From Candidatus Chloroploca sp. Khr17 (GTDB taxonomy: Bacteria; Chloroflexota; Chloroflexia; Chloroflexales; Chloroflexaceae), in contig NZ_RYFF01000034.1 of the NCBI RefSeq assembly GCF_004138165.1, forward strand, positions 1-64,000: a stretch of DNA of 64,000 nt, in the 5' to 3' direction. Positions within the stretch are counted from its first letter, which is position 1. Each line of letters starts with the position of its first letter. The notes under the pieces were generated by a model that did no database searches, had not been told where the DNA came from, and worked only from the letters and a program-made list of their open reading frames with translations. The position numbers and the translations under genes were made by a program. Shown here in pieces: positions 7,856 to 49,014 of this stretch.

Positions 7856-8617
7856 ATGTATATTCTCTTGACGAATGACGACGGCTATCAGAGCGAAGGC
7901 CTGGTTGCGTTGCGTACCGCCTTGAACGAAGTTGGCGAGACCGTCGTGGTGGCCCCGGATCGGAACTGGAGTGCCGCAGGGCATTATCGGAAGTTGTTTG
8001 ATCCACTAAGGGCCTGGGAGGGAACGCTCGCTGACGGCAGCGCGGCGATCCTGTGCGATGGAACCCCTGCTGATTGCGTTGCGCTTGGCGTGATGGGTCT
8101 CTTGCCACGCAAACCAGATCTGATCGTCTCGGGGATCAATCTGGGGGCCAACCTTGGCACCGATCTGCTCTATTCGGGCACGGTCGCGGCGGCGATGGAA
8201 GGCATTATGTTTGAGATCCCTGGCATTGCCGTCTCACAGGTGCGGCCCAAAGAGGGCGACTGGGACTTTCGGGCAGCCCAGCAGGCGGTCATTCGCCTGG
8301 TGGGGCTCGCCACCAAGCATCACTTGCCGGCGGGCATTTTGCTCAACCTGAACGCCCCGGCGCGCCCACCCGAAGAGGTCTATGGGATGCGCATTGCCCG
8401 CCTGGGGCGGCGGCTCTATCGTGACGAACTCGTGGTGCGCCACGATCCGCGGGGCAAACCCTACTATTGGATTGGCGGGGCCGAGCCCGAGGATTACCAC
8501 GAAGAAGGTACCGATATTGCCGCGATTGCCGCAGGCTATGTCAGCATCACCCCGGCCCATATGGATCTGACGAGCCACCGTTGGTTGGAGGAGTTGCGCG
8601 AGTGGGGGCTTGAGTAA
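7856..8617 (+). CDS. surE: 5'/3'-nucleotidase SurE
   Basis: SurE hydrolyses nucleoside monophosphates with a divalent metal, in the cytoplasm. The 253-residue length is typical. Family signatures are visible in order: LLTNDDGYQSEG at the N-terminus (metal-binding Asp pair), APDRNWSAAGH, CDGTPADCVALG, SGINLGANLG and LYSGTVAAAMEG. The start at 7856 is set by the spacing to the preceding stop (one base) and by the conserved MYILLTNDDG opening. It shares an mRNA with the VWA gene and is followed at once by a strong hairpin, so the pair probably forms a two-gene operon. Confidence 0.95.
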   Translation: MYILLTNDDGYQSEGLVALRTALNEVGETVVVAPDRNWSAAGHYRKLFDPLRAWEGTLADGSAAILCDGTPADCVALGVMGLLPRKPDLIVSGINLGANLGTDLLYSGTVAAAMEGIMFEIPGIAVSQVRPKEGDWDFRAAQQAVIRLVGLATKHHLPAGILLNLNAPARPPEEVYGMRIARLGRRLYRDELVVRHDPRGKPYYWIGGAEPEDYHEEGTDIAAIAAGYVSITPAHMDLTSHRWLEELREWGLE

Positions 8618-8662
8618 CGAGCAAACGTGCGCGGGCCGTCCGGCCCGCGCACGTTTGCTCGT
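8617..8662 (+). terminator. Hairpin terminator after surE
   Basis: A perfect 21-base-arm inverted repeat with a 4-base loop (GTCC) begins at the last base of the surE stop. It is very GC-rich and has no T tract. Confidence 0.65.
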
Positions 8663-8722
8663 ACGGTTGCAAGGACAACTGGCGCTTTGCGCTGGTCAAC
8701 GTCGCATAGGAGGAGTTGCGGT

Positions 8723-9286
8723 ATGGTACGAGGACGACGGCAGGATCGGCGTGAAGAGCGCCGCGAAGAACGGGCGACCTTTGGGCGCCGAGGGACGGCG
8801 ACACGCTACCGGGTGCGTCAGCGGATGCTGGCGATTGGTGATGATTTCTGGATCGAAGATGAGTCTGGCCGGCGGGCCTTCAAGGTTGATGGCAAAGTCT
8901 TGCGCATTCGCAAGACCCTTGTGCTACAGGATGCCCAGGGCAATGATCAGTGCCGGATTCAAGAGCGTATGCTGCGGGTGCGCGATACGATGCAGATCGA
9001 AAGCCCCACCGGCGAAGTAATGGCAACTGTCCGGAAAGCGTTGATCACGCCGATCCGCGACCGCTGGACGGTAAAAATCGGCAATGCGCCGGATCTTGAC
9101 GTGCGCGGCAATGTGCTCCATCACGAATATACCATTGGTGAAGAGGGACGGCGCGTTGCCGAGGTCTCGAAGAAATGGTTTCGGGTACGCGATACCTATG
9201 GTGTCGCCATTGAGCCATCGCAGAATGATGTGCTGATCCTCGCCGTGACGATTGTGATTGATATGATGGCCCATGGTGGAAGGTAG
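8723..9286 (+). CDS. LURP-one-related (Tubby-like fold) protein
   Basis: The 187-residue protein matches the LURP-one-related family. Its repeating beta-strand phrases are typical: YRVRQRMLAIGDDFWIEDESG, FKVDGKVLRIRKTLVLQD, QERMLRVRDTMQIES and AEVSKKWFRVRDTYGV. The family folds as a beta barrel around a central C-terminal helix (ILAVTIVIDMM here). An Arg/Glu-rich N-terminal tail (MVRGRRQDRREERREERAT) is unusual and may bind nucleic acid or a membrane surface. GGAGGAG precedes the ATG at 8723, so an upstream in-frame start at 8627 inside the hairpin is rejected. It is followed after 28 bases by the DUF6325-like gene and probably shares its mRNA. Biochemical function in bacteria is unknown to me. 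Confidence 0.8.
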   Translation: MVRGRRQDRREERREERATFGRRGTATRYRVRQRMLAIGDDFWIEDESGRRAFKVDGKVLRIRKTLVLQDAQGNDQCRIQERMLRVRDTMQIESPTGEVMATVRKALITPIRDRWTVKIGNAPDLDVRGNVLHHEYTIGEEGRRVAEVSKKWFRVRDTYGVAIEPSQNDVLILAVTIVIDMMAHGGR

Positions 9287-9314
9287 CCCTGAAACAGCAA
9301 GAGGAGTCACGCAG

Positions 9315-10142
9315 ATGAAAATTGGACCAATTCAGGTGCTTGCCTTCGAGTTTGAGAGCATTGACAAATTCAAGGGCCAGATCCAGGAAGAACTCGATCA
9401 CTTGCGAGGACATGGCCTCATCCGGATCATTGATCTGCTTTTTATCTTGAAAGAACATGATGGATCGACCCATAGCCTCCAGATGAGCGATCTGCTCCCC
9501 TACGAAGAGGCCGATTTTGGCGCACTGCTCGGGCACATGCTCGGGCTTGATTTGAGTGAAGAAGAAGAGGCGCTGGCAGGTGAACTGATTGCGGATATCG
9601 TTGGTGAGGCCCCAGGCCAAGGGATGGGGATCGCCGAGATCCGTGAGGCAGCAGCGACCATCCCGCCGGGCAAAGCTGCGGCGTGGCTGATGGTAGAGCA
9701 TACGTGGGCGATGGGCCTGAGTGCGGCGATCAAGGGGGCCGATGGCTATCTGGTCGCCCAGGGTTTCCTGACGCGTGATGCGCTGCTGGCCGTCGGGCGC
9801 GAGATGCACGCCATTGTTGAAGCCGAAGTGAGCATCGAGCGTGCCGAAGCACTCCGCGGGGCTGCGATGCTTGATGCACTGAGCACCGTGGCGGCCGCTG
9901 AGCAATTAGAGCAAGCCGCGATCAATCAGGCCACCGCAACGATGGTCGGGGTGGAAGCCTTCCGTACCGCCATTGCCGCCGAGGCCGTGCGTGCGCTTGT
10001 TGTGGCCGGCCTGCTCGAAGAAGCTGACGCCCCCGAGGCGATTGAGACATTGGTGGCAGCCGAACTGATTACCGAAGCGGCCCTCGATGAAGCGCTTGAG
10101 GCAGCGGATATGGCGGCGGCTGAATTGGCAACTGAGTGGTAG
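9315..10142 (+). CDS. DUF6325-like protein with an alanine-rich helical extension
   Basis: Residues 1-160 resemble DUF6325: an opening strand (MKIGPIQVLAFEF), FKGQIQEELDHLRGHGLIRIIDLLFILKEHDG, and a late TIPPGKAAAWLMVEHTWAMGLSAAI segment. This is the same general plan as the DUF1269 domain at the head of the next gene. The C-terminal 115 residues are helical and very rich in Ala and Glu, with a VVAGLLEEADAPEAIETLVAAELITEAALDEAL stretch reminiscent of short helical repeats. There is no signal peptide. ATG 9315 is chosen from the conserved N-terminal strand. A hairpin (10151-10187) separates it from the kinase-fusion gene. Role unknown; a membrane-stress function has been guessed for relatives. 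Confidence 0.75.
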   Translation: MKIGPIQVLAFEFESIDKFKGQIQEELDHLRGHGLIRIIDLLFILKEHDGSTHSLQMSDLLPYEEADFGALLGHMLGLDLSEEEEALAGELIADIVGEAPGQGMGIAEIREAAATIPPGKAAAWLMVEHTWAMGLSAAIKGADGYLVAQGFLTRDALLAVGREMHAIVEAEVSIERAEALRGAAMLDALSTVAAAEQLEQAAINQATATMVGVEAFRTAIAAEAVRALVVAGLLEEADAPEAIETLVAAELITEAALDEALEAADMAAAELATEW

Positions 10143-10150
10143 TTTTTGTA

Positions 10151-10187
10151 CCGTTGGGGGAACTGCTGTGGGCGGTTCCCCCAACGG
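10151..10187 (+). terminator. Hairpin between the DUF6325-like and kinase-fusion genes
   Basis: The arms CCGTTGGGGGAAC and GTTCCCCCAACGG are perfect over 13 bases with an 11-base loop. It starts 9 bases after the stop and ends 28 bases before the next ATG, so it may attenuate rather than end transcription. Confidence 0.5.
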
Positions 10188-10215
10188 CACGGATCTGTAA
10201 GGAAGGAAGCCTTGG

Positions 10216-11598
10216 ATGAGCCATCTCACCGCTATTGCCTTTCAGGATAAACATCAAGCCGGACGGGTGCTGGACTCGTTGCGACAGTTTGAGAAAGACA
10301 AGCTTGTCGAGCTTGATGAGGTTGTCGTACTCGTTCGCGATGAAGACGGGACGCTCCGGCGGATGCACGGCCTCGATGAAACCTTGCCCCAGGTTGGTTC
10401 GGCAGCAACGGGGGTGGGCCTGGGCTTGCTGGTTGGCGCACTTGCTTCGCTGCCGATTGTTGGCATGGCCGCCGGGGGGCTACTCGTCAACCGGTTTATG
10501 TCACGCAAGCAACTGGCGCGACGGGTACGCCAATTCAACGATGCGATCGAACCCGGGATGTCGGCGCTGTTTGTGGTTGGCAAAGCCGCCAATGCAGAAG
10601 AACTGCTCAGCCAATTACAACCATTTCTCGTTGGGGCGACCTTTCTTCAGACCAACCTGCCCGACGAACTGCTGAGCAATCTGAGTGAATCGGTTCAAAC
10701 CCCGGTGACAACCCTTGATGGCACCGCGCTGAAACGAGTCAAAGTCATCATCAACCCGGCGTCAGGCGTTGAGCGTCCGATCCTTCGTCCGCTCAACCGG
10801 ATCTTGAAGGAGGCACCTTTCACCTGGGACATCGCTCTGACCCATCGCAGCGGCGATGCGCAACGGCTGGCCGCTCATGCCGCGCTTGATGGCTACGATG
10901 CCGTGATAATTTACGGAGGCGACGGTGCCGTCATGGAGGCAGCCAGTGGTCTGACGGGCACCGGCGTGCCGCTGGCGATCATTCCTGGTGGCACGGGCAA
11001 TGTGATGTCGATCGAACTTGGGATCGAAAACAATATCGAAACGGCGGCTGCGCTCTTGACCCGTGACGAGATTCCTGTCCGCGACATTGATATGGGCGAG
11101 GTTGGCGAGCAGCGTTTCGCGTTGCGCGTCGCAACCGGTTACGAAGCACGCTATGTCAAAGAGACAACGCGTGAGTCAAAAGAGCGGCTCGGCAAACTGG
11201 CGTATGCACTGACGGCCATCAAACAGGATTTGGAACTGGTACGCTACCAACTGGTGATTGACGGTGAAGCTGTCGAAACCGAGGGCTATACCTGCATGGT
11301 AGCCAACTCGGGCAACATCGGCATCGCCGGGTTGCCCTTGCTCTCGCGGATCAGCATCAGCGACGGCTTGCTTGATCTGGTCATCGTGCAAAACCTGAAC
11401 TACCTCTCGCTCTTGCGCCACAACGTCTCGGCAGATGAAGCAGCCGAGCGCAACAAAATGGTACGTCACTGGCAAGCCCGCGAAATAACAGTGACGACCG
11501 AGCCAACCGAAACGCTCATTGGCGACGGTGAAGTTTGGGGCGAGACCCCGTTTACCGCAAAAGTCTTGCCGGGGGCCGTGCGGGTGATCGTGCCGTGA
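10216..11598 (+). CDS. DUF1269 domain fused to a diacylglycerol/lipid kinase domain
   Basis: Residues 1-165 form a DUF1269-like module. It has a FQDKHQAGRVLDSLRQFEKD start, VVVLVRDEDGTLR, then a glycine-rich hydrophobic hairpin (about 65-95) that may insert into the membrane. Residues 170-460 are a DAGK-type lipid kinase. They carry KVIINPASG, the nucleotide-binding GGDGAVMEAASGL (GGD at 234-236), IPGGTGNVMS, the metal region around DIDMGEV, and a C-terminal ETLIGDGEVWGETP segment. Such kinases phosphorylate diacylglycerol or a sphingoid-like lipid at the inner membrane face using ATP. The DUF1269 module would tether or regulate it (inference). The neighbouring upstream gene encodes a domain of the same plan. 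Start supported by AAGGAAG upstream of 10216. Confidence 0.88.
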   Translation: MSHLTAIAFQDKHQAGRVLDSLRQFEKDKLVELDEVVVLVRDEDGTLRRMHGLDETLPQVGSAATGVGLGLLVGALASLPIVGMAAGGLLVNRFMSRKQLARRVRQFNDAIEPGMSALFVVGKAANAEELLSQLQPFLVGATFLQTNLPDELLSNLSESVQTPVTTLDGTALKRVKVIINPASGVERPILRPLNRILKEAPFTWDIALTHRSGDAQRLAAHAALDGYDAVIIYGGDGAVMEAASGLTGTGVPLAIIPGGTGNVMSIELGIENNIETAAALLTRDEIPVRDIDMGEVGEQRFALRVATGYEARYVKETTRESKERLGKLAYALTAIKQDLELVRYQLVIDGEAVETEGYTCMVANSGNIGIAGLPLLSRISISDGLLDLVIVQNLNYLSLLRHNVSADEAAERNKMVRHWQAREITVTTEPTETLIGDGEVWGETPFTAKVLPGAVRVIVP

Positions 11599-11604
11599 CG
11601 GTTG

Positions 11605-11675
11605 ACCTGTAGTGACGCAAAGGCGCAAAGGCGCAAAGCACGTCGCACGCTTGGCGAGACGCCAAGCGTGCGACG
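11605..11675. repeat. GCGCAAAG tandem repeat followed by a 16-base-arm hairpin
   Basis: About 11612-11640 holds GACGCAAAGGCGCAAAGGCGCAAAG, the core of the small dispersed element. 11641-11675 is a perfect hairpin (CGTCGCACGCTTGGCG, loop AGA). It terminates the kinase-fusion gene or marks a truncated element copy. Confidence 0.7.
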
Positions 11676-48949: not shown

Positions 48950-49014
48950 GCTTGATATCTGAATACGGGAAATACCTGACAGTGTCAGGTATTTCCCGTA
49001 TTCAGATATCAAGC
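48950..49014 (-). terminator. Perfect 31-base-arm hairpin
   Basis: The arms begin GCTTGATATCTGAATACGGG and run without mismatch to the loop AGT. It lies 10 bases after the stop of the small gene at 49024, is less GC-rich than other hairpins here, and is the longest perfect stem in the window. Confidence 0.75.

Follow-up and report, generated by a model that had tools for sequence, protein, structure and literature searches.

The YegS/Rv2252/BmrU lipid kinases are represented by several solved structures, and the best solved relatives of the kinase described here are BmrU (3t5p) and the diacylglycerol kinases 3s40 and 4wrr, to which alignment begins only at about residue 169. We take GGDG, GT.N, DG.LD and DGE..TP to be the motifs of this group. 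LURP-one-related (LOR) proteins have a Tubby/scramblase-like fold and, judging by the titles and first lines of abstracts among the matches listed, have been described mostly in plants. The titles and abstract openings returned by our literature searches give no function for DUF1269 (PF06897) or DUF6325 (PF19850), and the mentions of DUF1269 are incidental by title; the searches for PF06897 and for DUF6325 returned no paper. Members or relatives of all these families are encoded side by side in the window, the stretch of 64,000 nucleotides of Candidatus Chloroploca sp. Khr17 that was analysed.

Three open reading frames on the + strand, at 8723-9286, 9315-10142 and 10216-11598, encode a LOR protein of 187 residues, a middle protein of 275 residues and a lipid kinase of 460 residues, respectively, and each has a plausible ribosome-binding site as judged by eye. 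The span 8723-11598 given in the earlier note takes in all three genes, position 8723 being the start of the LOR gene, which lies 5' of both other genes as that note had it. VWA and SurE genes are located 5' of the LOR gene, and a DUF1622 gene is located 3' of the kinase gene (Pfam). The frames and the gene order of this row are conserved in Ca. Chloroploca mongolica and Ca. Chloroploca asiatica, and the kinase is 97% identical to that of Ca. C. mongolica M50-1 and 95% identical to that of Ca. C. asiatica B7-9. Two relatives (L040 and L041) carry about 77 extra bases 5' of the LOR gene that are missing from the window at 8669-8670. Elsewhere in the window, a perfect 32-base inverted repeat with arms 1 base apart occupies positions 48950-49014. 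No tRNA gene was found in the window, and Rfam gave zero matches at gathering scores.

The kinase (10216-11598, + strand) is assigned to the YegS/BmrU type by its domains, score and motifs, and its phosphorylating activity is predicted. Counterparts are found in two Chloroploca genomes and in G214, a genome of the same family but another genus. The protein scores 129.4 bits against TIGR00147, over the cut-off of 118.65. Its catalytic part consists of the PF00781 DAGK_cat domain (residues 175-295; 10738-11100, +), with the motifs GGDGA and PGGTGN, and the PF19279 YegS_C domain (residues 305-459; 11128-11592, +), with SDGLLD and DGEVWGETP, the latter being the DGE..TP motif. The lipid-kinase motifs are therefore largely retained. 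The Thr position of GGDGT is occupied by Ala in the window kinase (GGDGA) and by Ser in the G214 protein (GGDGS), so that kinase activity is not assured. N-terminal to the catalytic part is a DUF1269 domain (PF06897, residues 63-159; 10402-10692, +), which contains a hydrophobic Gly-rich segment and scores 38.9 bits against a cut-off of 26.9. The peak 19-residue hydropathy of the kinase is 2.07, starting at residue 67, and that of the middle protein is 1.50 at residue 216.

The LOR protein (8723-9286, + strand) passes the PF04525 cut-off of 24.5 with 63.4 bits (E 2.8e-17), and its sequence matches the solved plant protein At5g01750 (1zxu) with an E-value of 1.2e-4. Its N-terminus is rich in Arg, and its net charge is +10. 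Structure predictions reached mean pLDDT values of 46 and 36 from alignments of only 3-4 sequences, and no conclusion is based on them. The middle protein carries a net charge of -34 overall and matches zero Pfam families at E <= 1; the PF19850 DUF6325 cut-off is thus not reached directly. One of its relatives, L034, exceeds the cut-offs for both PF19850 (33.1 bits) and PF06897 (34.3 bits), and among its relatives in other Chloroflexota some match both DUF6325 and DUF1269 and others match DUF6325 only or neither.

Profile comparison by hhalign relates the middle protein to a DUF6325-like set (100%, E 2.7e-41) and to a DUF1269 set of which the kinase N-terminus is a member (96%, E 3.6e-9, 146 columns), and the DUF6325-like and DUF1269 profiles match each other with E 2.6e-13; each of these E-values refers to a single comparison between shallow profiles. 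The claim of homology is based on these separate, uniterated alignments, whose members were picked from search matches, together with Pfam. Iterated DUF6325 and DUF1269 profiles converge on the same proteins, so that they act as one detector for the superfamily and cannot separate the two. The "same domain plan" that the earlier note saw in the middle protein and the kinase N-terminus turns out to be homology, and its three components, a YegS-type lipid kinase fused to DUF1269, a soluble homologue of DUF1269 and a LOR protein, are confirmed by domain matches and profile comparison. By these profiles, DUF6325 and DUF1269 are one superfamily, of which the soluble branch has apparently lost a hydrophobic hairpin. 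The aligned sequences show two conserved halves that are separated, in the DUF1269 branch, by a hydrophobic stretch rich in glycine; at that place the middle protein is acidic and non-hydrophobic. The hairpin-free DUF6325-like domain spans about residues 1-175 of the middle protein (9315-9839, +). It is followed by a C-terminal helical extension of about 100 residues (9840-10142, +), which the family orthologues and G161 share and the five shorter DUF6325-like proteins in the alignment lack.

The middle gene and the kinase gene are separated by a hairpin (10148-10190, +; z -5.6), the position of which is kept in two relatives with some changes and one lost base in Ca. C. asiatica. A 22-bp perfect hairpin lies between SurE and LOR (8617-8662, +; z -8.1) and differs in relatives by a paired change on both sides, and a 16-bp perfect hairpin lies 3' of the kinase gene (11641-11675, +; z -5.2). 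Among the 25 longest of the 32 hairpins listed in the window, none falls in the gap between the LOR gene and the middle gene. A T-run is absent after all three hairpins, and so a terminator function is a guess; the hairpin at 10148-10190 is possibly a terminator or a processing stem. If the hairpins do terminate, the pair of LOR and middle genes and the kinase gene would be separate transcription units, in line with the comparative data. Long perfect hairpins also follow genes elsewhere in the window and may be terminators of this lineage.

The unit that is conserved beyond the genus is the LOR gene with the DUF6325-like gene and without the kinase, a pair that the earlier note overlooked. LOR was found in 49 of 301 Chloroflexota genomes (60 matches), including 6 of 19 listed members of the window's family, and the neighbourhoods of 42 of the 60 matches were examined, 9 in the family and 33 elsewhere, several of the latter being cut by contig ends. 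A DUF6325-like gene directly follows LOR at all nine loci of the family, the window and eight others from six genomes in all, and lies near LOR at one of the 33 loci outside it (G116). Each Chloroploca genome has two such pairs, type A, to which the window's pair belongs, and type B (G000:C9 and its counterparts, also in G198). The tree of LOR is compatible with that of the DUF6325-like proteins, and both show the same split into two types; the grouping of type B apart from type A has support of 87/93 in the LOR tree, below the 95 mark, and 100/100 in the DUF6325-like tree. The G214 pair is placed firmly with neither type in either tree and is, by path, the nearest row to the window's outside the genus.

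At four loci (L031, L032, L105 and L107) the type-B pair is followed by Radical_SAM/SPASM, sulfatase, HAD phosphatase and sulfate permease genes. Such surroundings of the second pair indicate that the pair has no fixed association with lipid kinases. They also raise the alternative that the pair serves an arylsulfatase, for example by maturing, placing or regulating it at the membrane, and that the kinase-side copy arose by duplication and relocation. That four type-B pairs stand with Sulfatase, Radical_SAM/SPASM, HAD and Sulfate_transp genes fits this alternative, as do the DUF6325-like genes that lie near sulfatases in G196, G092 and G161. However, G230 has retained the pair together with the HAD and permease genes, the sulfatase giving no more than a remnant match and the radical SAM gene none, and no such sulfatase occurs near the type A pairs or the G214 pair within the regions compared. 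We regard a role centred on the sulfatase as very improbable.

DUF1269 shares an open frame with the kinase in only 4 of the 301 Chloroflexota genomes, three of which are Chloroploca (G000, G222 and G260) and the fourth G214, where the fusion is 42% identical to the window kinase across its full length. Kinase N-termini were read at the fetched loci and among the paralogues of the own genome, the remaining genomes being covered by the DUF1269 search; at the other Chloroflexota loci read, the kinases lack DUF1269. A single-sequence search of genome contigs, a method that finds close relatives only, matched just two Chloroploca genomes. Among plasmids, none of the 114 records with a kinase match reaches 80% query coverage, and no plasmid record matches the middle protein. 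At one of the 33 LOR loci outside the family (G300, L115:5930-8135, a distant lineage of Chloroflexota), an unfused YegS-type kinase of 519 residues is followed 16 bases on by the start of the LOR open reading frame.

Of the four fusion genomes, the three from Chloroploca have all three genes side by side. The G214 kinase and LOR pair are on separate contigs, and neither of the fetched regions (16 and 13.8 kb) contains the other. A LOR pair is nevertheless present in all four fusion genomes, and G198 and G230, which carry only the other pair type, have no fusion. The lack of co-occurrence in other genomes that the earlier note named as refuting its proposal was thus not observed, with the reservation that three of the four genomes belong to one genus. 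The co-occurrence of the fusion with a type A or G214 pair is suggestive only, as it represents at most two lineages.

To the earlier note, the LOR protein, the DUF6325-like protein and the kinase looked like one module for membrane-lipid sensing or remodelling, which as a gene unit would be a single operon. The shared strand and the order conserved in three Chloroploca genomes agree with this, as do the LOR family membership and the lipid-kinase domains, whereas the kinase is unlinked in G214, is missing beside the second pair and from G198 and G230, and has a hairpin 5' of it. A single operon is accordingly quite unlikely. What stands of the proposal is its parts and the row kept in three Chloroploca genomes; linkage beyond the genus was not found among the fusion genomes. 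The architecture is real, well-formed and rare, and a three-gene module beyond one genus is without support.

In the nine pairs of the family, net charge ranges from +3 to +6 for the LOR core (the last 165 residues) and from -23 to -36 for its DUF6325-like partner. Of the 33 LOR cores from elsewhere, 31 are negative and two are at +3. The opposite charges fit a putative LOR/DUF6325-like complex held together electrostatically, all nine pairs being from one clade.

We tentatively prefer, at somewhat short of an even chance, a reading of the row as two neighbouring units. In the first unit (8723-10142), the basic LOR protein of Tubby/scramblase fold and the very acidic soluble relative of DUF1269 would probably bind each other. 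In the second (10216-11598), the DUF1269 domain of the kinase would enter the cytoplasmic membrane with its hydrophobic, glycine-rich hairpin, and the catalytic domain would presumably act at the inner face on diacylglycerol or a similar lipid. Because DUF6325 and DUF1269 belong to one superfamily, the anchor domain of the kinase could be a docking site through which the soluble pair regulates the enzyme. Several observations count against this reading: the pair is linked to the kinase in one genus only, a strong hairpin intervenes, the second pair is kinase-free, and a single clade supplied both the charges and the trees.

An alternative is that a membrane-anchored lipid kinase happens to stand, in one genus, beside an unrelated LOR/DUF6325-like pair, the common ancestry of DUF6325 and DUF1269 then reflecting the abundance of the superfamily and no joint function. 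Adjacency in Chloroploca only, pairs that stand with sulfatase genes elsewhere, the hairpin between pair and kinase and the five DUF1269 matches in four proteins of the own genome all suit such a chance neighbourhood. It does not readily account for the presence of the pair in all four fusion genomes when genomes with only the other type lack the fusion, or for the independent LOR-kinase neighbourhood in G300. We regard chance as a substantial possibility, slightly less likely than the preferred reading.

One of the four DUF1269 proteins of the own genome (L212:1258-3450, G000:C1) has 730 residues and carries two DUF1269 matches followed by a C-terminal alpha/beta hydrolase domain (Abhydrolase). 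A DUF1269 match in a 751-residue open frame of G094:C123 may represent the same architecture. DUF1269 is fused to DUF1254/DUF1214 in G116 and accompanies a PRC domain in G161. No kinase was found in the other long DUF1269 frames read (G000:C1, G116:C6 and G161:C70), G094:C123 and G161:C391 (484 residues, below the cut-off) standing outside this set. As its fusion partners are such different enzymes and domains, DUF1269 looks like a general attachment module, a membrane anchor for enzymes, and not a part of lipid kinases. On the side of DUF6325, a gene for a small SHOCT-type protein adjoins the Pfam DUF6325 gene at 15 of 23 loci (L192-L209, L036 and L108; tables read by eye).

The two-unit reading may be extended to an adaptor superfamily, in which the membrane branch, DUF1269, would anchor interchangeable enzymes (lipid kinase, alpha/beta hydrolase, DUF1254/1214), and the soluble branch, DUF6325, would carry a membrane-responsive partner, LOR here and a SHOCT-type protein elsewhere, dock and switch the enzyme. 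This extension is unlikely; if true, it would amount to modular control of lipid enzymes at the bacterial membrane. Short of that, DUF1269 on an assayable enzyme offers a direct handle on whether the domain anchors or regulates, and the conserved, oppositely charged pair provides a concrete candidate binding partner for a bacterial LOR protein.

Compared with the YegS/Rv2252/BmrU kinases (TIGR00147; BmrU 3t5p, 3s40, YegS 2bon/2jgr and DgkB 2qv7), the window kinase has both catalytic domains and most motifs in common, differs in having GGDGA in place of the GGDGT of the known family, and has an additional N-terminal DUF1269 domain. The hairpin and the second half of PF06897 DUF1269 proteins match in the window kinase over the cut-off; in the Chloroflexota search, DUF1269 matches are mostly in open frames under 340 residues and hence free-standing, whereas in the window the domain is fused to a kinase. 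The middle protein is homologous to PF19850 DUF6325 by profile through intermediates, is itself below Pfam detection, and adds the C-terminal extension of about 100 residues. The neighbour of DUF6325 differs as well, being a SHOCT-type protein at most of the Pfam DUF6325 loci and LOR in the window's family. Within the LOR/Tubby-like superfamily (PF04525, At5g01750), the window protein is over the cut-off and matches the solved plant protein, and it differs in being bacterial, basic and partnered with an acidic DUF6325-like protein.
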